This document shows positions 3,816 to 54,271 of a DNA stretch of 64,000 nucleotides, piece by piece. How positions within the stretch are numbered: position 1 is the stretch's first letter; every line of letters starts with the position of its first letter. A program made the position numbers and the translations under genes. The DNA comes from Urechis unicinctus. Its lineage: Eukaryota > Annelida > Polychaeta > Xenopneusta > Urechidae. The notes beneath the pieces are model-generated. The model saw only the letters and a program-made list of their open reading frames with translations. It did not search any database and was not told the origin of the DNA. The stretch is from the NCBI GenBank assembly GCA_034190875.2, contig CM067344.1:73093309-73157308 (forward strand), in the 5' to 3' direction.

Positions 3816-6500
<2,685 letters not shown>

Positions 6501-6975: not shown

Positions 6976-8815
6976 CTAATATTATATATCATTCCAATAC
7001 ACTAAAACATGACTTCTTTATAACCTTTGCTTTAAGTTTAACTATGTGTTATATGATATTTCAGTCATAGACAGTGTCACCCTTTTGCCATCTATTAGTC
7101 ATGAAAGTCATCGTTTAGATGTCAATAGTAGCTATCCCAAACAAAGTGTATTGTTTTGAGCGGACAGCTAAGTGTAACAGCTAGCCAAATAATGAGACCC
7201 CTAATAGGTTTTCAAAGTCAAGAGACTCTTTTGTCCGGGTATCTGGCCCATCAATATTGTTATTAAATTGTTGCCAAATTAGCAAGCAAGTCATTAATAG
7301 TACAATCACCCCATTTGAATCTATCAGTTATAAGCTATTAATGTCATGGTCTTCTGTCAGTTTGTCTTACAATCTGTGGTAGTTTAATTGTGGTATTAAG
7401 CATATTTGAAACCCCAAATCACACATGAGGCCTTTTTAGGACAGCGCAGTTCCCAAGATGTGACAACCCAACGGGTTATGCATGACTTAGATGATCACTT
7501 TGAATGGTTGTCCATCCCTGAAAGGGGTTACCCGACTTGTTGCATGCCACTTATATTGTACAATTTATGGGACTATGAGGTAGTAACCATTATTAGTTCT
7601 GCTCCTCAGCATAGCTTTTTCCAGTCCATCTGTCTGTTGGTAAACTTTTATTGGCTCATTGTTTTTTTAATAAAGCAGGCCACTGTTATATTGATTGTCA
7701 CTTACTAACAAGATATCAGCCCTTCGTGGCCTTACTATTGAGAAATGATGTTAACCAAATAGGGAATCATTTTAATGACAAGTTTTCTTATAAGGCATGC
7801 CACCGCTATCAATTGAACTCTTGTATTGATGATCACTTACAAATTAAATATCAGCTCTGTATGATCCTAAGTGATTTACCCAATGGGGTATGGAAAGTTT
7901 CGAGGTCGCATGTTGTCATAAATCAAGCTAATGGTCCCAAATCCTACCTAAGGCCTTCTGATGTCATTATCTCCTTGCTTACTAGAAATCAGATCTGTGT
8001 GATCCTTAACTTCAGCAATAATCCTATGATTATTATTGTAAATACTGGTAATGTGTAAAATGCCACAAGGCAATTGGTAATATTGGCCACTTACCAAACC
8101 CCAAAAATTTTTTTGGGATAAGTGTTCACCCCTGTGTTTCGTGGAATGATTTAATTTGTCATAACTTACTATTGAAAATCACATCAATAGAGGCAGATCT
8201 TCAGGGACTGTTTATCTCTCTTGTATCAAGCTAGATGTCTCAAATCATAAATGGGCTTTATCATGTCAATATCTCCATGCCATCTATAACTCATGTGGCT
8301 TCATCTACATTTCTGATAACTGAGCTAATGACAGCTGTTTTGACTCTACCAATTCAAGGGTCGTTGTCAAACATCATTGCCAGACATATTACAGTGTCTA
8401 GAGTGGTTAAATAACATTAAGCTGCCCAAAGCAATCGATATGCAAAATAGTTACAGCAATAACATCAATGATGGCCGTTTCATTATCCATGAATAATATA
8501 TAATAATATGCCCTACATGGTTTTTATCTTTGGAATCGTCCATGCTGCAGCATTAAGCTTCTGCGCAGTTCGAATAATAAACAATGAGAGATCGAAAAAA
8601 GTTTCTTTCGGTTCCTAAAAGAACTAAAAAACGCGCAATTCTTTGTGGGAGCTTTGTAACCCAAGATTGTATAAACAATGGTCTGTCAGTGGTATAAAAT
8701 ATAATGTCTGAAATGGTTGGTTATTAAAATTGGACAAAAGTAATACATTAGGAATTGTTTTGGTATATCAAAATATGCCAGGCTGGTAGGTTGGTTTGGA
8801 TAATTATATGTTTAG
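6976..8815. other. No gene seen; weak internal repeat
   Basis: AT-rich non-coding sequence. Between about 7680 and 8180 the phrase ACTTAC followed by an ATCAGMYCT-like stretch and a GATCCT-like stretch returns several times (near 7700, 7836, 7976 and, more weakly, 8164). This suggests an old, badly diverged repeat of about 140 bases. Open frames of 100 and 135 codons overlap this area but resemble no known protein and are not called. Confidence 0.4.
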
Positions 8816-43400: not shown

Positions 43401-44133
43401 AGCGAACATAATGTTTGTCTCGCTTCTAGTGAAAAACTATCACCCATCAATAACCTGTGCAAAATCAAGTATTGCTTTGCCTGTCGGATTGTGTCATTTA
43501 CGACAAAACCCAATGTAAAGCGGAAGGATTTTTAGTTACAGAGGACCCCAACCAGCGGTGTAGCTCGTCCGCGTAGCGTGCTTAACTACCTTTATGCAAC
43601 CGCTTCAGTGCTAATTTACTAATATCTATTTATTATGAGATTGTCAAAATATCAATGCATGAAAAAGTGTACCTTGCATTAATATAAAACTTGCAATACT
43701 GCAATGGCTTACATTTATTTCAGGGTTAATTATGGACTCCGACGTAGTGACACAGCAGCCGTGGTATTAGCAAATCAATCATTCATACTTTTCACTCTAC
43801 CATATTCATAAAAAAGAAAGTTAATAAAGGACGCACCTCGGAAGATGCCTCGTTGCACGTCCTGCCTAAATGAATAAGGCATGACTCGGCCGGACAGAGT
43901 GAGGGAGCGGATGTGCAATATGAACTGATGCAGATGAGCATAATATATCGTCTGAAATATTCCGAGTGTCTCTCTATGCTGGCTTGTAACGCTTCTCATT
44001 TTATGTAATGCATCATGAATAAAATGGTTATTTTGTTTATTTGACTTACTAGGAAGGCAGCTTCAAAGTATATACGACTAGTCTGCTAAGATGCAATGCA
44101 TTTTCCAGTGCAACCTGACTTGCATACAGTTAT

Positions 44134-44177
44134 AACCCTTACACACGACCGAGATATCTCGGTCGTGTGTTAGGGTT
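44134..44177. repeat. 44-bp near-perfect palindrome at LINE 5' border
   Basis: Arms of 22 bases meet at GAGAT/ATCTC. The left arm reads AACCCTTACACACGACCG and continues into the centre; the right arm is its reverse complement with a single mismatch (TTAGGGTT against AAGGGTT). It sits immediately left of the first sequence that I assign to the LINE 5' untranslated region. Confidence 0.9.
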
Positions 44178-45681
44178 AGAGTCGACTTCCGGCAAAATGG
44201 CGGAATTTTGAATTGTTTTCAAGCTCGAGAAAAACAGTAAAGGGAACGATATTTGGCTCGCTAACTGTTATTTATACTACGATTATCCCTGTGACTACCC
44301 AGGGTGAGCGATAATACATTAAAATGGAAGAGCAAACCGCGGGAATATCACACTCGGATTCGAACGAAAATGAAAACTCGCAGGATAATTCCAGCAACAC
44401 TGTGAATCTGAACCTGAAAATAAAACACTCCCAGAGTGTAACAGTGCTTACGTTTGTCTCCGAGCAGGTGTACAATGAGTTCAAAACTGCTGCTGACAAC
44501 TTCTTCTCTACTGCGCCAGATGTGGAAGAAGCAAATCTCGACAATGGAGACACACGCTACAGAGTCAACACAAAGGACAGTAGCTACACCATCTATTTCC
44601 ACATCAGTAACAAGGAAATTACGGTCAGTGGAATAAACCAACTTGACTTTATTAACAAGGATCGACCCATCTTAGTGAAAAGACTGGAGAAAAATGCAAC
44701 TGTAACTGTGTCACCAAAGCAGTACTCTGCTTTGCAAAGAACAACTGGGTACACTACAAATGTGAGAACCTCACAACACAAGAGATAAACCTAATTAATA
44801 AACCCACTTACGGTTTGTACAAATGCAAGGCTTGCAGTGACGAGTCGCATTATTATAATGGAGATACCTCTGCTTATGATAACACAGCGAACATGGACAC
44901 CTCAGAACCACTTGCTGTATCACAAGGATCGCCTGTGAGTCCCAGTTCTGCTCCAATCTCACCCATTCTTTCCCACTCGCCCACTATAACGACACCCCCG
45001 TCACCGACAACACCCATGCTGTGTACTACAAGCTACTCATCCAACAAGCTGCACAATGAGTCAACAGCCATCCAGCATACCAGCTGCTCTGGTTACCACA
45101 TCAGCCTCCCTCTCACATTCTGAGTTACCTCCACGCACCACTACAGGTGACTCCGCGATACCAGAACTCAACCAGAATCAAAAATGACAGCACAGGAGGT
45201 GTCACCATAACAGAAAATGCCTTCAAAGCAATTGAAAGCCACATAATAGAGCTAAAAATGACTATGATCCGACTTGAAGATAAAATCAACAATGAGCTGT
45301 TCTCCCTGAACAATCAAAAGAGAGGAGTGTCCATTACAGCCACTACCCAGACTGACAATACTTTGTATCCAGAAAGCTCAGACACTAGAAATCAAACACC
45401 AAACCAGAGTGATACCTCTACCCAAACAACCCCGACCGCAGCAATATATGATACCTCTACACAAACAACCATGACTGTTTGGAAAATATATCACTTGGTG
45501 ACAATGTGGCTTCTATTCTCACAAATATGCAAAGTAGCATTGACAAAATTGAGGACAAAATCCAAGCGCAACCTCAACTAGAATCAATAAACAACCGCAC
45601 CCAGCAACGTAGCTACTCTGCCGCTGCCTCCTCCCCATGGACAGTGACCAGCAAGCCAACACCTCAAAACAGTACCCACTT

Positions 45682-46077
45682 GTTTAAGGAAAGAGATGAT
45701 CCACTATCTAATCTCTACTTGACCCCACTGATAGTTTTTGACAGGTGGTACAACAGTGCAGAGCAAGCCTACCAGCATAAACACGCTGAGTACCTTAGTA
45801 ACAAGGACACTGGAACTAAAATCATGAGGTGCAAAAACCCAAAAGATATCATGAAAATAGGCAAGACACTGAAATCAACCCCCGAATGGAATGCTGATAA
45901 GGAAAGCTTTATGACTGAAATTCTTTCTGCTAAGCTGCTGCAATGTGCAGCTTACAAACGCCGTCTTGCTGAGTCTGACAATATGTCTTTAAAGGAAGAT
46001 ACATTGCATCCATTCTGGGGAGGGAAAGCTGGGATGAACAAGCTGGGAATCATCCACATGAAACTCCGACACCAATG
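45682..46077 (+). other. NADAR (YbiA/DUF1768-type N-glycosidase) domain in ORF1
   Basis: About 130 uninterrupted codons match the NADAR pattern from start to end: FKERDDPLSNLY, then FDRWYNSAEQAYQHKHAEY, IMRCKNPKDIMKIGKTL, W-N-A-D-K-E-SFMTEILSAKLLQ, LAESDNMSLKEDTLHPFWGG and GMNKLGIIHMKLRHQ. The family hallmarks LSNFY, S-x-EHAYQ-x-K, a late E-x-T-x-D-x-x-WG and G-x-N-x-LG are all recognisable, including the Glu of the AEQAYQ helix. NADAR enzymes cleave N-glycosidic bonds, as in riboflavin intermediates, and some remove ADP-ribose from guanine in DNA (family knowledge). The role in a LINE is unknown. The domain has no stop in it, although its neighbours do. Confidence 0.85.
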
Positions 46078-46161
46078 CCAACATCTAAGTCAAGATAATG
46101 GAACGACAACATTTCTACCCACCAAAACAACTTCAGAGAGGGCCAACCCCAAACGCCAAAA

Positions 46162-46664
46162 CACCTGATCCTAGGGGACTCAAATACAAGACCACTTACT
46201 CCGTCCAAAATGACAAAACGATGCACTATAACTATTAAGTCAACAACGACAGTGAATGAAGCCAGACAAGCAGCTGAGTCGCTTCAGCCAAAGGGGCAGA
46301 CAGTTGCCCTGCATGTAGGGACAAACGACTTATGAGACAAAACTGCCACATATGTAGCCAGCCAATTAACTACCCTCACCAAGCTACTGATAAGACACAA
46401 CAACAAAGTTATAATATCCAAGTTGCTTCCTCGTACTGGACTATCCATTCATGGCAAAGTACGCGAAGTAAATCAAACCCTACAACAAGCTTTCCGACAT
46501 ACCCCAGAGGTCAGATTTACCTCGACTGAACAGTTCCTGTACAATGAGAGGCCAAATTCCCTCTTGTTCAGGAATGGCAGGGGGCTACCACTCATCCACA
46601 TCAACCCCAAGGGAATTGCTGTACTGCGTTCACAGATACAGAAAGTCATAAAAGATCTGATGTA
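46162..46664 (+). other. SGNH/GDSL esterase domain in ORF1
   Basis: One frame carries HLILGDSNTRPL (block I, catalytic-type Ser in GDSN), then VALHVGTNDL (block III GTND), KVIISKLLPRTG, NQTLQQAF, LYNERPNSLLFRNGRGLP and LIHINPKGIAVLRSQI with the late His. It ends at TAA-type DLM-stop at 46664. One TGA follows GTNDL at 46333. Esterase domains of this fold are described in ORF1 of CR1-like LINEs (family knowledge); the known proposal is a lipid- or membrane-related function in retrotransposition. Confidence 0.8.
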
Positions 46665-46957
46665 AGTCTCTAACTCTTGAAAGGTGTCTTCTAAAAATGT
46701 TTTCATTTAATTTTGTTTGTATATGAAATACTCAATACCAATTGCTAATGTCTACAATAGCCAAAATCTGTTAACGCAAGCAGAAACCCATGTGTATGCA
46801 TGCACACATGTGTTTAAATATATAAATGCATGTGTGTTGAATATATGTCTGTAACAGACGCACTAACATGGCAATTATAGAAAACGTTGCCTAAATTTGT
46901 GTAATAATGGATTCGTTTGATGTTTTTCTCTTGCATTCTAATTCTAATTGATACTTG
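46665..46957. other. LINE inter-ORF spacer
   Basis: About 290 bases between the end of ORF1 and the first ATG of ORF2. It is AT-rich, with alternating purine-pyrimidine ATGCATG and ACACATGTG stretches near 46795-46840. No coding signal. Confidence 0.6.
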
Positions 46958-49900
46958 ATGACTCCTGTTCAAACTGGTCATGTAAATAGCTCATTGAAAA
47001 TTGGAACCTGGAATATCCAGGGTCTCATCTCTAAGGATGTGGATAAAACGCTTGACTTGACGTTTAAACGAGATATTTTGATATTGTAGGTTTGCTTGAA
47101 ACACACACAGTCGAAGGTCTGGGTGACAATATGCACTTTGATGGCTACAAAACTGTAAGTTATCATAGACCTAAGCACACCAAAACTACTCGTGGCTCAG
47201 GAGGTATCACTGTATTGGTTGATAAAAATATAGCCCAAGGAATAACATTCAAACCCTCACTAAATAAAGACTATGTATGGCTCCAACTAGATAAAAAATT
47301 ATTTGATCTTCACAATCATATCTATGTGTGCATAGCTTACATACCTCCCCCGGACTCTTCATACTCAAAACGTATCCAAATCAATCTCCTTGACCAAATC
47401 GAAACCGATATATTCAACTACAAAAACACTAGCCAAATAATTCGTCTTGGAGATCTCAATGCTAGAATAGGTACATGTAAAGACTTCATTGTCAATGATA
47501 ATGACAAACACCTACCGTTAGACAGCTACAATCTTGACTCACCTGAAATGGCAAGGATTAGCCAAGACAATGTAGTTGACAAAAGGGGCAAACATTTGCT
47601 AGAAATCTGCATAGGAGCACAGATGAGGCTCCTAAATGGCAGAAAACTTGGGGACACACTTGGCTACTTCACAAGCCATCAAATATAATGGGCATGCTGT
47701 TGTAGATTATGCCATGTGCAGTGAATCACTCATTGATAAAATACCTTACTTTAAAGTCTGAGAAATCAGACGAGACTTTTTCTTAACTCTAAAGAAATAT
47801 AGAAAAGAACGTAAATATGCCAAAAGCTGCTTCATAAATAAACAGATTACAAAACTAAACTCTCTGGAAAGAGATAACCCCTAAAAAAAGTTTTGGCAAC
47901 TACTGCAAGATATAAAGTCAGGCCCCAATAATGCTAATTGTGGAAACAACATCGAGCCTGGCACATGGTTTGACCACCTCACTAAACTCAATAAAGATAA
48001 TAGTGATGAATGTACAGAAATCAACAAAGACATAAACAGACTCCTCTCTTCGAAATCATTTACCACCCTTGATTATAGCCTGAAAAGCAAAGAAGTACTA
48101 CAAGCTATCAATAAACTTAAAAACAACAAAAGTCCAGGCCTTGATTCCATATCAAATGAAATGATAAAATGTTCAACCAAAGAAATGCTCCCTTGCCTAC
48201 TCGGCCTTGTCAATAAAATTTATGTTATGGGAATACACACATTCACAAAAAAGGATGTATCAATGGTCCCCAAAACTATAGGGGCATTACAATAACCAGT
48301 GCACTTGGAAAGCTTTTTAACTAGGTTATGGGCCAAAGACTTCAAGACTATCTTGAAGAAAACTCATGTATCTCAAATCTTCAAACTGGTTTTCAAAAGG
48401 CTCAAGTACATCTGACCACATTTTCACCCTCAAAACTCTAATTGATAAATAAACACACTCGAAAGAACAGAGATTATATGCCTGTTTCATTGACTTCAAG
48501 CAGGCATTTGACAGAGTATGACACACAGGTCTTCTTCTAAAACTAGCAAAAATAGGTGTCAACAATTATCTCTATAGCTACATCAAAAGCATGAATGCCA
48601 CAACCATACTTTGTGCCAAAGTGAAAGAAAACAAACTCACAGAGTTCTTCCCATCAGACATAGGAGACTGAGACAAGGTGACAACCTCAGCCCCATTCTC
48701 TTTAATGTTTTTATTAATGACCTGACTGATGACCTACACAAAACCATTAACACTGATGCAGTAAAACTTGGGAATGAACAACTAAACTGTCTATTATACG
48801 CAGATGATGTGGTTTTGTTATCTACTAGTCCATCAGGCCTTCAGAATTGCATTAATGCAGTCAAGACTTTTTAAGACAAATGGAGACTAACTGTCAATCT
48901 TAGCAAGACCAAGACTCTTATTTTCAACAAAAAAGGGAAGTTCATTGCTCATAATTTCCTGTTTGGGAGCCACAAAATTGAATGTACAGATAGTTATCCC
49001 TACCTGGGTATTAATTTTACATCATCTGGTTCACTAAAGGACTCCATGGATGCACTCTTCCAAAAAGGGTTAAAACTTAACAAACTCATTGACCACAATT
49101 ACAACATAAATACAGTTCTACATGTCTTTGATCACACGGTTAAGCCAGTCATATTGTGTGCCTCTGAGGTGTGGGGTGCAGAGATAAGAACTAGTTTTTT
49201 AAAGGATGGTCAAATATGTGAAAAGAACCTTGAAAACAATCTGATATCTCAGTTACAGCTCAAATTCTATCGAAGACTGCTGAATGTAAAGAGACATACA
49301 CCAATACTAGGTATTAGAGGGGAATTGGGTAGGCATCCAATTATATTTACAGCCATACTGAATTCAATCAAGTACTACTACACTATAACAACCAAACCTG
49401 GCAACAAACTGGTAAAAGAAGCACTCACTGAGAACTTCAAGTTGCATGACAAGAAACATAATGTATGGTATTCCAAGCTACTTCATATCTTCGACAATCT
49501 GAACATCAGTAACAACCCTATTCCTGCCAGCAAAATAAAACAATCTATAAAGAAAACTCACCAAAAAATTAAAATTATGTTTGAACAATATTGGCATCAG
49601 GGAATAAATAGTCCAATTAGTTTGTCCAGAAATAACGGTGGAAACAAACTAAGAACTTGCAAAAACCTTAAACAAAACTTTGAAGTAGAGAAACATCTAA
49701 CTAACACTGACGACAAGAAACACATTAATGCTATCTCACAATTTCGTCTAAGCTCCCACTCCCTGGACAATGAATCAAAACGAGGAACAATTAAAGACCC
49801 CAATAATAGAATATGCCAATTCTGTACAGCACAAGCCATTGCAAATGAGGAACACTTTTTGCTCAAATGTCCCCTGTACCACACAGAAAGACAAAAACTG

Positions 49901-49963
49901 AAGGACACAATTTTCAAGAACCCCAATATATATGTTTATTTCGTACTCAAGGTACCTGCATAA
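46958..49963 (+). pseudogene. LINE ORF2, 5' part: APE endonuclease and reverse transcriptase
   Basis: Starts at ATG 46958 (MTPVQTGHVNSSLKIGTWN). APE endonuclease pieces: IGTWNIQGL (47001), VGLLETHT after a frameshift near 47080, GSGGITVLVDK (47197), VCIAYIPPPDSS and GDLNARIG (about 47448-47471). A frameshift at 47683 follows, then NGHAVVDYAMCSES. The linker and early RT are riddled with stops (47760-48670) but keep NNKSPGLDSISNEMIKCS and YACFIDFKQAFDRV. The core RT has RQGDNLSPILFNVFINDL (48674) and LLYADDVVLL (48793-48822), whose Asp pair is intact. A C-terminal finger CQFCTAQAIANEEHFLLKC is at 49816-49872. The last certain ORF2 sequence is ERQKLKDTIFKN near 49920, where the second LINE begins. 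Confidence 0.8.
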
Positions 49964-50028: not shown

Positions 50029-52989
50029 TTACGATACTAAAATATCTTGTATCATCAAATAAATCATTTCATCGTCAAATTCATCAATCATAATTTCATT
50101 GTTTTTAACACAAAACAATGTATTTAAGATACAGACCAAAGCCTTCTGTTCATCTGCTAAAGACTCTTTCTTGATAATTTGTGTGATATTGAACCCCACC
50201 TCATTATGTACATTAATGTTATATATGTGTCTAAGGTAAGCAATATTGCGACCCAAAGGTGAAAGGGCATTAGAACAAGCATGTTTGATCACATACTTAA
50301 CTACTGCATTGTCGCTGTGATTCATTTGGACAATCATTTTCAGCGTTTTAATGCATAAGGAAACGCTAATGTGTAGTTGGCCACTTAATGGCCCCAGTAC
50401 CCAAGTATGCAAAGCAATTGGAAGGTTGAGTATTCGCCTAACAGCCTTATTATTTTTTTATAACCATCAGAATCAATGGTCCATAACTGGGAGCCATAAA
50501 AACTGCAGCAATAGGAATTGAATAATTTACACAATGTGTTTTTATGCAACTCTCCAAAGTTCCCCATCATTTTGTTAAAAGCAACATTAAACATAGAACA
50601 TTTTGATGTGCAATCACTATAATCATTCAACATGTTATCAATGACATTCCCCAAGTGTTTAATAGTTGTAGCCCATTCAATAGTAGAGCCATACAATATC
50701 ACCTTATCAAATTCATTTACTGCCCTGCCATATTTTATGCATTTTGTTTTCAAAGGATTAAAAACTACGTTATATTCATCAGCAAATCGTTCACATATTT
50801 TCAACATATTGTTCTGTGCAATGAGACTTGGACTGAGTAAGGTAATGTCATCAGCATAACCAAGCGCACCAACATATTTGCTGCCTATATGACAGCCTAG
50901 TCCAGACTTTTTTAACCTTTGTATCAGCTCGTCAATGTACACAGTAAATAATATCGATGATATGACACCACCGTGCTTAACACCGTTTGATACATGACAC
51001 TCTTTTGATAAGCATGCATTCCATTCAACAGATATAGTCTGTCTCGAATAGCTATCCATAAGAAACCTAACTATAAGCGGAGGCACTTCACGCTGCAATA
51101 GCAATTTGAATAATTTTCCATAATGTACCCTGTCAAAGGCTTTACTAGCATCTAACAGACAACTAAAAACATCACTATTTCTTTGTGTATAATAACTAAT
51201 TGTTTCTTTATATACAGTCGTGCAAAGGATTGTAGAATGTCCCTTTTTGAAGCCAAATTGAAGATCAGACGTACATAAAACATTGCCATACTGTTTTAAG
51301 AATTATCATATCTAAAACTTTGCAAATTGAACTACATAATGCAATCCCTCTGTAATTATCACTACAACTTAATGATGATCGCATAACTTTTGGTATCGAA
51401 ACAATGGTTGAATTTAATAAATTATCAGCTGTATGGCCATGTGAAATCATAGCATTGAATAGTTTACATAAGAGACCAGCAAGTTTGGGCGTCCCGTTAA
51501 TCAAATGGTCAGAATAAAGCTCACGATTGCCATCGCTTTTGTTACTCTTCAACTTTCCTATACATTCAGATAAAACAGAGGATGTAACAACATCATATCT
51601 TGCACTGTCATAACTAATTCCAGCATTAAACGCTTTCATCACATCACGCATTTCATTATCGTTTGTGGGAACACTATTGAATAACGTCGAGTATTTATCA
51701 AGAAAAAGGTTTGCAATAGGCACTGGGCCACTTGCATTATCTACCACAGTAGGTACACTCTTACAGATTGGATTGATCTTTTTTAGTTCACGCCAAAAGT
51801 CTGTATTACTACATGCGTTTTCAGCCAGTTTTGTCTTCTTTATATCGAACTCATTTCTTTTGGCTGCGCGTACGGCATAATGATATTTATGACGTGACTG
51901 CTTCATTATGTCATACACAGTGCCTTGGTTAGGTTTGCCACACTCGATCCAAATCCAATGCCAGAAAAGTGATCGTTCTTTCTCTGGTTTTACAATCTCT
52001 AACCATCCCGCAATTTTCCTTGAAACAGGCTTCTTTGACGGAATAGTTTCTTTACCAGCTTGAGTACAACAGCCAACAATTGATTTACAAAATGCATCAA
52101 TAGCGGTTTTGTGATTGCTATCACGGCACCGCTTATCGGTGCATTGAAACACAGCATGCGATACAAACACACCATCAAGCAAAATATCCAATTCATTCTT
52201 GTACCGATTAACATATACCTCTGTTGCCTGACTCCAAGAGAGCCGATCATCTGGCAAGAAACTCTGACTATCTGTAGACATAACGTTGTCAATATTTACA
52301 TCTATTGTGATGAATATAGCATTATGATTTGACGGGTTTGTTTGGTCACGAATAACATTACTGATTTAAAGCAAAATTAGTATATGTACAATTTTTGAGG
52401 AGTTTTTACTGTTCCAAGAAACCCTCAAACAATTTCTCTCCATAAAGTCATTCAAACAGCGAGTCTGTGCATTGGTTCTTTCAAACGATGTGTTTAAATC
52501 ACCACAAATTACAACCGAGGTACAACTAATCGAATTGACAACAGACTCAATTACATTAATAACCTCCTCATATTCGTTTGTTACTTTGTTTCTTGAATAA
52601 TTATCACAAGGCATATATACGCAAATCAATAGCACACTCCCCAAAAGAAGAATCATTAATCGTAATGCCACAAACGCGCCTGTGAGTATATCTATATGTG
52701 ACACATGCTTAGAAAGAGACTTTCGGTATAAAATTACAGTTCCACCATAAGGGCGCCCTACTAGAATGTCAGATGTTGAGTCCATACCAGACTTTCCAAC
52801 AAATTGATAATCCTTATGCACATTATTCAGCATCGAGACATTTTCTTTTAATAACCAAGTTTCTTGTAAACACATTATATCACAACTGTAACGGTTCAAA
52901 CAATCGCTAACATAGGGAGTACACCTCTTTATCCCTTCCACATTCAAAGAGCATATATTAAAACAATTGCTGTTTGGACTATTATCCAT
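50029..52989 (-). pseudogene. Nested LINE ORF2: APE endonuclease and reverse transcriptase
   Basis: ATG at 52989 (MDNSPNSNCFNICSLNVEG), end at 50029, about 987 codons. Endonuclease motifs: SLNVEG, MCLQETW, GRPYGGTVILY, ICVYMPCDN and VICGDLNTSF. A TAA lies at 52366. RT motifs: LKSNKSDGNRELYSDHLING, STIVSIPK, DNYRGIALCSSICKV, DLQFGFKKGHST, CLLDASKAFDRV, HGGVISSILFTVYIDEL and LGYADDITLLSP; the catalytic Asp pair is intact. The C-terminal part has RRILNLPIALHTWVLGPL. The only frame changes are in short A homopolymers near 51297 and 50456. With one stop and two single-base slips it is close to intact. Confidence 0.82.
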
Positions 52990-53004
52990 GAGTGAAATTA
53001 CCTA

Positions 53005-53940
53005 TTACGCGCGTTTCGTCCAATACCGCCTGCATCCAATACCTTCAGGCCAGAATTCCGGCTTGTAGAGCAGATTTATATCTCCAGTCTCTAAAGCTAT
53101 CCGGTATGAAAGTGTCCAAGATTCTGGTTTAGATGCGCATTCAATTTCGAGCACCTTGATGCTCTGTTCTTCCAAAAACGATTTCAGCACTGACGAGACG
53201 ATATCACGATGCACACGAAATACGAAGAGTTCATATCTTCTGGGACCTGCACGTAGTTTGGTATCGGTGCGGTTACCAAAAATGGCTCTCGGCCTGTCCT
53301 GGATTGTCTCCTTATCTCGCGCTATCTACCGATCCTTTTTCGTCATTTTGCGCTGTTGACGCGGTTGAAGATGGAACACCTCTTCGTCTTGAGAGGTGCT
53401 TGACGAGGTCGTTGGTGTTTCTGGCCCGCCTTTATTCGGAAGGGGAGTGGAAGGAGGGGGTTGCTCCGAAGCAATGTGCGCCACATGATGTGTCGGTTTC
53501 TGTGTTGCAACAGTGGTTGAATACAGCGGTTTCGGGGCTAGGGATGGCATTTGGGCTTCAAGTTTGCAAAGTCGTTCGTTTATCGCAACAGCGGTAAATT
53601 CCTCGGGAATGCTGCGAGGCAACTCGTTTAAGTTGATTGCCACAAACGAGACCGGCAGCTTGGCATCGCAAAATATTGAGTCGATTGTCTTCAGACTCTT
53701 CATTATATCACCCATCTCTTTCATATGTGCTTTCTTTAGCCCTCGGCTCTGGCGTTTTTTAATTGGTGGCAGATGATCTGAGTAATTCTCCCAGAGTATT
53801 GATTTCGCCTCCGCAATGGCCTCAGGACAGTAAAACCCGGCGATTACATCCTTGATACTGTCATTGGTAGCACTTTTCAAGTGGTGAAAGGCGTAGGTCA
53901 GCAGCTCATTCACTACAATTTTGTCTTGGCTATCTGCCAT
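53005..53940 (-). pseudogene. Nested LINE ORF1 (311 codons, one TAG)
   Basis: Starts at ATG 53940 (MADSQDKIVVNELLTYAFHH) and ends at 53005, 16 bases before the ORF2 ATG. One frame throughout, broken only by a TAG at 53326-53328 after MTKKDR. The N-terminal half is helical; the middle is Pro/Ser/Thr-rich (EQPPPSTPLP). The C-terminal part, YELFVFRVHRDIVSSVLKSF then FWPEGIGCRRYW, matches a compact RNA-binding-like domain seen at the end of ORF1 in CR1/L2-type LINEs (family knowledge). It should bind element RNA as part of the ribonucleoprotein. Confidence 0.75.
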
Positions 53941-54271
53941 AGTAGATTCGGGATCTGACGTATTGTAGCAGAAACGAGCAGGTTAACAGTCTTTAAGTTT
54001 GAGTCCTACCATTGAGTCGATCACGATTGACACTTAGCTCAATCTTTTGTACGACTTTTCGCGATAAAAAACCGCTACACAGACAAATTCGTACATCGAA
54101 TCACAGCAATATCCTCTTCTTCGCACGCGCGGTATGATCACCAATCCAAAGTATTAACTTTCGTCCACATAAGTGGACAGTAACAGTCACAATATCCGTA
54201 AATATCAGAGCTGTCCGAGCGTGTGCTGTCACTCAATCAACGCGATCTCTAGTCAAACGGCTGAAGGCGTG

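Follow-up and report, generated by a model that had tools for sequence, protein, structure and literature searches.

A NADAR domain in the ORF1 of a dead LINE of Urechis unicinctus is part of a PHD-NADAR-SGNH arrangement found with more than one type of ORF2

The window, the whole 64,000-nucleotide stretch of Urechis unicinctus DNA analyzed here, carries a LINE of the family designated A between approximately 44185 and 49930 on the forward strand, with a LINE on the minus strand lying beyond it. Parts of the element were assigned with the help of an intact ORF1 relative (P0002) and a family B ORF2 (P0003), as follows.

44185 to 44323, forward strand: 5′ end and 5′ UTR, with the AAAATGGCGG motif at 44194; the exact first base is approximate.
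44324 to 44788, forward strand: ORF1 N-terminal domain in the first frame, function unassigned, placed by its position and frame order as the N-domain of P0002.
44692 to 44838, forward strand: PHD-like zinc finger in a shifted frame; P0002 matches MLL1 PHD3 (E value, 0.0018).
44839 to 45680, forward strand: ORF1 linker of low complexity with two frame changes, perhaps partly helical, the helices being predicted solely by a P0002 model of low confidence.
45701 to 46075, forward strand: NADAR domain, based on the Pfam profile and solved NADARs, with equivalents of E43 and E125 present and His at the K50 equivalent.
46160 to 46665, forward strand: SGNH/GDSL esterase-like domain and end of ORF1, with a TGA at 46333 to 46335; P0002 matches the Pfam GDSL lipase profile at 21.1 bits, below the cutoff of 32.9.
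46998 to 47688, forward strand: ORF2 AP-type endonuclease with a frame break near 47065; P0003 matches Exo_endo_phos at 39.6 bits.
47885 to 49930, forward strand: ORF2 reverse transcriptase (RT) and C-terminal part, with several stops and frame breaks; P0003 matches RVT_1 at 129.7 bits.

This copy is dead. Its ORF1 has four frame changes and the one stop listed above within ∼2.35 kb, its ORF2 lacks ∼400 bases near 47758 relative to copy L010, and similarity to relatives stops at 49930, leaving the 3′ end absent. In the window itself, neither the PHD nor the SGNH frame had a significant Pfam match of its kind; the flanks of NADAR lie in other frames, and together with P0002 they bear out a preliminary description, made from these letters alone, that had placed a NADAR domain between PHD-like and SGNH parts of a LINE ORF1. 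The same description drew attention to the domain being stop-free amid damage, which is true and unremarkable, since with that number of lesions a lesion-free 396-base stretch is expected, by our estimate, about 4 times in 10, and NADAR is damaged in the family A copies L009, L010, and L012. Two neighbors of the element were also recorded. A near-perfect 44-base palindrome (AACCCTTACACACGACCGAGAT / ATCTCGGTCGTGTGTTAGGGTT) at 44133 to 44178 lies directly upstream of the LINE 5′ end; it was not found ahead of the element in the nine other copies compared. The minus-strand LINE (50029 to 53982) has endonuclease and RT frames and a possible ORF1 at 53005 to 53982, its RT sharing 26 to 27% identity with the RTs of the three families defined below.

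The frame at 45479 to 46168 encodes 229 amino acids, and residues 75 to 199 matched the Pfam NADAR profile PF08719 with 53 bits (E value, 6.1e−14) against a curated cutoff of 35.1 bits, confirming the domain call in this frame, so that the first of the two refuting outcomes named in the preliminary description did not arise; the P0002 domain scored 48.5 bits against the same cutoff. Among solved structures, the window domain matched YbiA (PDB 2b3w; E value, 5e−4), and a profile built from four copies matched both YbiA (E value, 4.7e−7) and 8bau (E value, 1.6e−6), a Phytophthora NADAR with ADP-ribose bound. The predicted model of the window domain was weak (mean pLDDT, 65.5), and a Foldseek search with it returned 8bau as the top PDB match, with a probability of 0.97 but an E value of 0.14, all other matches having probabilities of ≤0.08. 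The predicted model of the full ORF1 was poor (pLDDT, 46.1).

Querying the source genome of the window (1.19 Gb in 926 contigs) with the NADAR protein gave 36 match rows, or about 30 loci, made up of the window, 20 loci that were read, five second pieces of these, and 10 rows in nine further loci; the Pfam NADAR model gave 16 rows, 13 of them above the cutoff. The 21 loci read were divided into family A (the window and L009 to L012), family B (L013, L014, L018, L020 to L024, and L028), and family C (L015 to L017, L019, and L025 to L027). DNA identity of matching stretches was 80 to 94% between the window and L009 to L012, 82 to 99% between L014 and five B copies (L013, L018, and L022 to L024), and, in the main stretches, 84 to 99% between L015 and the six other C copies. 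SGNH was found downstream of NADAR in 19 of the 21 loci (all but L020 and L025) and PHD upstream in 12, and wherever parts were present the domain order was constant across the three families, as were the SGNH motifs GDSN, GTND, and LPLxHxN. The family A locus L011 also holds, on its minus strand (L011:7939-9900), a 654-amino-acid frame with 31 R[FY]MRFGK units, which we take to be an FMRFamide-type precursor.

These elements are LINEs, having an AP-type endonuclease and RT in ORF2, 5′-truncated copies, and target-site repeats. Each on a different chromosome-sized contig, L015, L016, and L017 have 6.8 kb in common at 98 to 99% identity; their match ends at one common 5′ point, and their flanks differ. 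Target-site repeats were identified for L023 (TATATTCAG, 9 bp) and, more weakly, for L015 (TATGAT, 6 bp), being convincing in L023 only; L016 sits in repetitive DNA, and its repeat is ambiguous. Many Tx1 elements, for their part, have a specific target site. The 3′ ends carry short CATTGT-type repeats in family B (L013, L023, and L024) and CT repeats in family C (L015 and L016). An AATGGCG-type motif occurs near the 5′ ends of all three families (in the window, in L014 to L018, and in L023); it resembles the YY1 motif of the human L1 5′ UTR and is perhaps a shared promoter element.

CR1/L2-type ORF1s with a PHD and/or an esterase were reportedly described by Kapitonov and Jurka in 2003. The arrangement found here is seen whole in L014, where an intact ORF1 of 752 amino acids comprises the N-domain, PHD, linker, NADAR (residues 426 to 554), and GDSL/SGNH. 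The preliminary description had counted copies lacking the domain as evidence against its reading; the NADAR-less copies that were read proved to be truncated, internally deleted, or interrupted, and no PHD-SGNH junction without NADAR was found among the loci read. None of eight copies of the family B ORF2 checked upstream (L029 to L036) has NADAR. L033 to L036 retain just part of SGNH, and L029 to L032 are without an ORF1 of their own (the SGNH piece in L032 is part of an opposite-strand family C copy), so that all eight look 5′-truncated. Six loci with an N-domain or PHD match and no NADAR match (L037 to L042) were read, and none had the PHD-SGNH form. The linker is directly joined to RT in L039 and L042, L041 has NADAR residues 1 to 16 followed by ORF2, and L040 continues into other sequence; L037 and L038 continue into N and are hence uninformative on NADAR. 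Frames of 2,959 and 1,969 amino acids at C10:14082173 (L037) and C6:52582574 (L038), respectively, were rejected as artifacts of N runs. In the family B copy L018 (L018:4296-5118), the N-domain stands directly before NADAR, with PHD and linker absent.

The genome does hold two NADAR loci unlike the LINEs, at C17:20983594 (124.6 bits) and C9:21499082 (78.8 bits), from which a host-gene domain could have been inserted once into a LINE. The first (L049:1094-2899; C17:20983093-20984898) lies in a 998-amino-acid open frame whose long tail is a degenerate repeat with many D, T, and A residues; the second is in several pieces, which may be exons. However, the LINE NADARs share just 22 to 23% identity with the C17 domain and are thus not a recent copy of it. 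With about 30 loci and the same domain order in three families, a one-off host-gene insertion or an assembly join is so improbable that it was rejected. Relatives were also sought in prokaryotes and viruses by pattern scans, which gave 62 and 31 stretches, respectively, none of them confirmed by tblastn, a negative of little weight given the narrow patterns.

Active-site columns were compared in the Phytophthora numbering with 8bau as a guide and residue roles taken from the available part of PMC11543638. E43 is kept in 18 of the 19 copies that have the column. The E125 column, aligned to 8bau and 2b3w, is Glu in 19 of 20, the YbiA type, Asp or His being found there in other NADAR subfamilies. 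W89 is kept in 19/21 copies and W133 in 15/18. At K50, 15 of 20 copies have Lys, counting the one in L012 that adjoins a deletion; the residue is His in the window, L009, L010, and L011 and Arg in L028. In family A, then, the catalytic Lys is replaced by His in four of the five copies, and the fifth, L012, is deleted there; the R93 column is Lys in all five and Arg in the other 15 copies. In the accessible text of a bacterial study, this Lys (numbered K95 there) is listed among the catalyzing residues (PMC11543638). On residue conservation, the NADARs of families B and C look catalytically competent, whereas the family A domain, with His at the catalytic Lys position, may be changed or less active.

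Selection on NADAR was assessed by Nei-Gojobori dN/dS with bootstrap intervals for 12 within-family and five between-family pairs; dS was saturated in all five of the latter. The within-family result was divided. The interval lies below 1 in six pairs, L014-L020 (0.13; 0.06 to 0.27; the lowest), L014-L022 (0.18; 0.09 to 0.32), L014-L018 (0.27; 0.15 to 0.49), L015-L027 (0.29; 0.14 to 0.66), L015-L017 (0.43; 0.18 to 0.99), and window-L010 (0.47; 0.25 to 0.98), and it spans 1 in the other six (L014-L013, L014-L023, L015-L026, window-L009, window-L011, and L011-L009), so that constraint is seen in half of the within-family comparisons. Purifying selection is clear in three of the five family B pairs (0.13 to 0.27), and we conclude that NADAR was constrained in the lineages leading to family B and less clearly elsewhere. 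The window copy itself bears no clear mark of having been kept by selection. Its NADAR gave dN/dS values of 0.47 to 0.75 against three relatives, with upper bounds of 0.98, 1.29, and 2.04, and the copy looks like a decaying one.

The ORF2s accompanying this ORF1 are of more than one lineage. The RTs of families A and B, including that of the window, carry the motif RQGDNLSP, and the best PDB match of P0003 by phmmer was human L1 ORF2p (101 bits). In L015 to L017 the ORF2 downstream of the PHD-NADAR-SGNH ORF1 encodes an endonuclease-RT from a different lineage, with the motif VPQGSILGP; VPQGSxLGP is presumably a CR1-type RT motif, and it is on this basis, rather than a tree, that the family C ORF2 is called CR1-like. 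The label CR1-like given to the window element in the preliminary description is not borne out, its RT motif being RQGDNLSP and the family A RT (L010) being 24% identical to the VPQGSILGP RT of family C. P0003 matched the family C RT with 87 bits (BLASTP), roughly the level of its L1 ORF2p match. Taking one representative of each family, RT identity is 62% for B-A, 25.5% for B-C, and 24% for A-C (A represented by L010), whereas NADAR identity is 61% for B-C and 48% for both B-A and C-A, and SGNH identity is 55% for B-C, 47% for B-A, and 44% for C-A, so that the nearest ORF1s are paired with the most distant ORF2s. The family C junction is more than a one-time accident, as it also occurs in L032, located on a fourth chromosome-sized contig, within a 5′-truncated 3,028-base match (98.4%) running from SGNH into the family C ORF2.

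Judged from these comparisons, the ORF2 next to the cassette ORF1 was swapped at least once, a clear case of ORF1/ORF2 recombination. The first family C chimera may possibly have arisen by nested insertion, since C-type RTs are abundant (94 match rows in the genome) and mostly without a known link to the cassette, but once formed it has been mobilized as a whole. A second swap probably took place within family C. The older copies L026 (90% identity) and L027 (84% in the main stretch) cease to match L015 at reverse-complement position 6307, past which they have ∼70 bases in common that are absent from L015; beyond these, L026 has a decayed RT 37 to 43% identical to P0004 and L027 a 56-amino-acid RT piece at 45%. 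A nested LINE in L026 is a possible alternative to this second swap. Three further C-type RT copies match L015 only from reverse-complement positions 7765, 7216, and 6399 on. At L044 and L047 (C2:34604500-34607500), where the L015 match begins at 6399, a C-type ORF2 follows a different ORF1 with a PHD and a by-eye RRM-like part, which may reflect a further ORF1 exchange or a junction formed by chance. Overall, the PHD-NADAR-SGNH ORF1 behaves as a portable cassette, whose downstream partner is an L1-like ORF2 in A and B and, in family C, one CR1-like ORF2 or, probably, two.

The NADAR domain is multicopy, in frame in an intact ORF1, under purifying selection in some of the comparisons, and common to elements with distantly related ORF2s. 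Our leading reading, to which we give about an even chance, is that the window holds a dead LINE of an autonomous type whose ORF1 protein was a fixed cassette of N-domain, PHD finger, linker, NADAR, and SGNH, its NADAR stripping ADP-ribose from guanine of the element's RNA or cDNA; of the roles considered for ORF1p, we infer this removal to be the most likely. ORF1p would coat the element RNA, PHD would contact chromatin, SGNH would contact lipid or remove acyl groups, and NADAR would hydrolyze ADP-ribose from guanine in the element's RNA or its first-strand cDNA (or would act on a small ADP-ribose derivative), by which the LINE template could stay readable in hosts that ADP-ribosylate guanine. 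Action of this NADAR on ADP-ribosylated nucleic acid is plausible, and in the accessible portions of two papers NADARs are reported to hydrolyze ADP-ribose from guanine (PMC11543638, PMC11125620).

NADAR could instead be a binding module only, docking ORF1p onto ADP-ribosylated RNA, DNA, or protein or sensing NAD-derived signals, with no catalysis needed. Family A would fit this, as it keeps both acidic residues yet has His in place of the catalytic Lys in four of five copies, but almost every B and C copy retains these residues together with K50 despite 39% NADAR divergence between the two families, and we consider a purely binding role rather unlikely. A similarly low likelihood is given to low-molecular-weight derivatives of ADP-ribose, or RNA-end by-products (RNA processing), being the NADAR substrates in place of base-linked ADP-ribose. 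Proposals of this sort exist, as far as the sources were available, for viral NADARs (PMC9503650) and for retrotransposon NADARs (PMC12477816). Against it, all NADAR/YbiA proteins assayed on guanosine-ADP-ribose acted on it, according to the accessible text of PMC11125620, and that of PMC9503650 favors macromolecular targets for eukaryotic RNA viruses.

Beyond removal of ADP-ribose from guanine by ORF1p, the cassette might be a portable means of counter-defense that passes between LINE lineages and enables retrotransposition despite guanine ADP-ribose tagging, for example by a clam CARP-1-like enzyme, a proposal that we regard as rather unlikely. In the available parts of the respective papers, guanine-N2 ADP-ribosylation of DNA is described in six edible clams (PMC11209040), the CARP-1 enzyme is proposed as part of innate immunity (PMC8053099), some animal RNA viruses have NADARs proposed to strip host ADP-ribosylation (PMC9503650), and what NADARs do in eukaryotes, including animals, is described as unclear (PMC11125620). 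A NADAR-domain protein is also reported in nematode trans-splicing (PMC9303266, available in part). The present elements raise the questions of whether reversing guanine ADP-ribosylation helps LINE movement and whether nucleic acid ADP-ribosylation is a defense against retroelements. Database entries for animal NADAR proteins may also include LINE ORF1s.

The preliminary description knew of no NADAR domain in a retrotransposon; the kind found here is already in print, as the available part of a 2025 Ectocarpus paper (PMC12477816) reports NADAR in an Ectocarpus Gypsy Pol and, via a Repbase query, in several Tx1 LINEs of Crassostrea gigas, where it is part of ORF1, and suggests RNA processing. 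Among the papers listed by the literature searches, PMC12477816 was the sole earlier report to appear, and none described the PHD-NADAR-SGNH order, selection acting on it, or its occurrence with different ORF2 lineages; as far as these searches show the PHD-NADAR-SGNH ORF1 as a portable cassette is new. The oyster elements, compared by description only, resemble ours in having a YbiA-type NADAR in a LINE ORF1, and the family B ORF2 here has L1 ORF2p as its best PDB match; they differ in that the accessible text of PMC12477816 names no PHD or SGNH partners, selection test, or sharing between ORF2 lineages. The Ectocarpus Gypsy elements are likewise retroelements with an acquired NADAR but are LTR elements with the domain at the Pol N terminus, not in ORF1, and the relatives found in that work, as far as available, were almost only bacterial (PMC12477816). 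CR1/L2-type ORF1s have in common with ours the PHD and esterase modules and the exchange of ORF1 across lineages, whereas the available text of PMC4120745 mentions no NADAR, and its Table 1 has no PHD plus esterase in one ORF1. DarT-associated and free-standing NADARs and YbiA have the same domain as the LINE copies, in which E43, E125, and (in families B and C) K50 are kept, but here it is embedded in a retrotransposon protein and its activity is predicted (PMC11543638 and PMC11125620, in the parts available).
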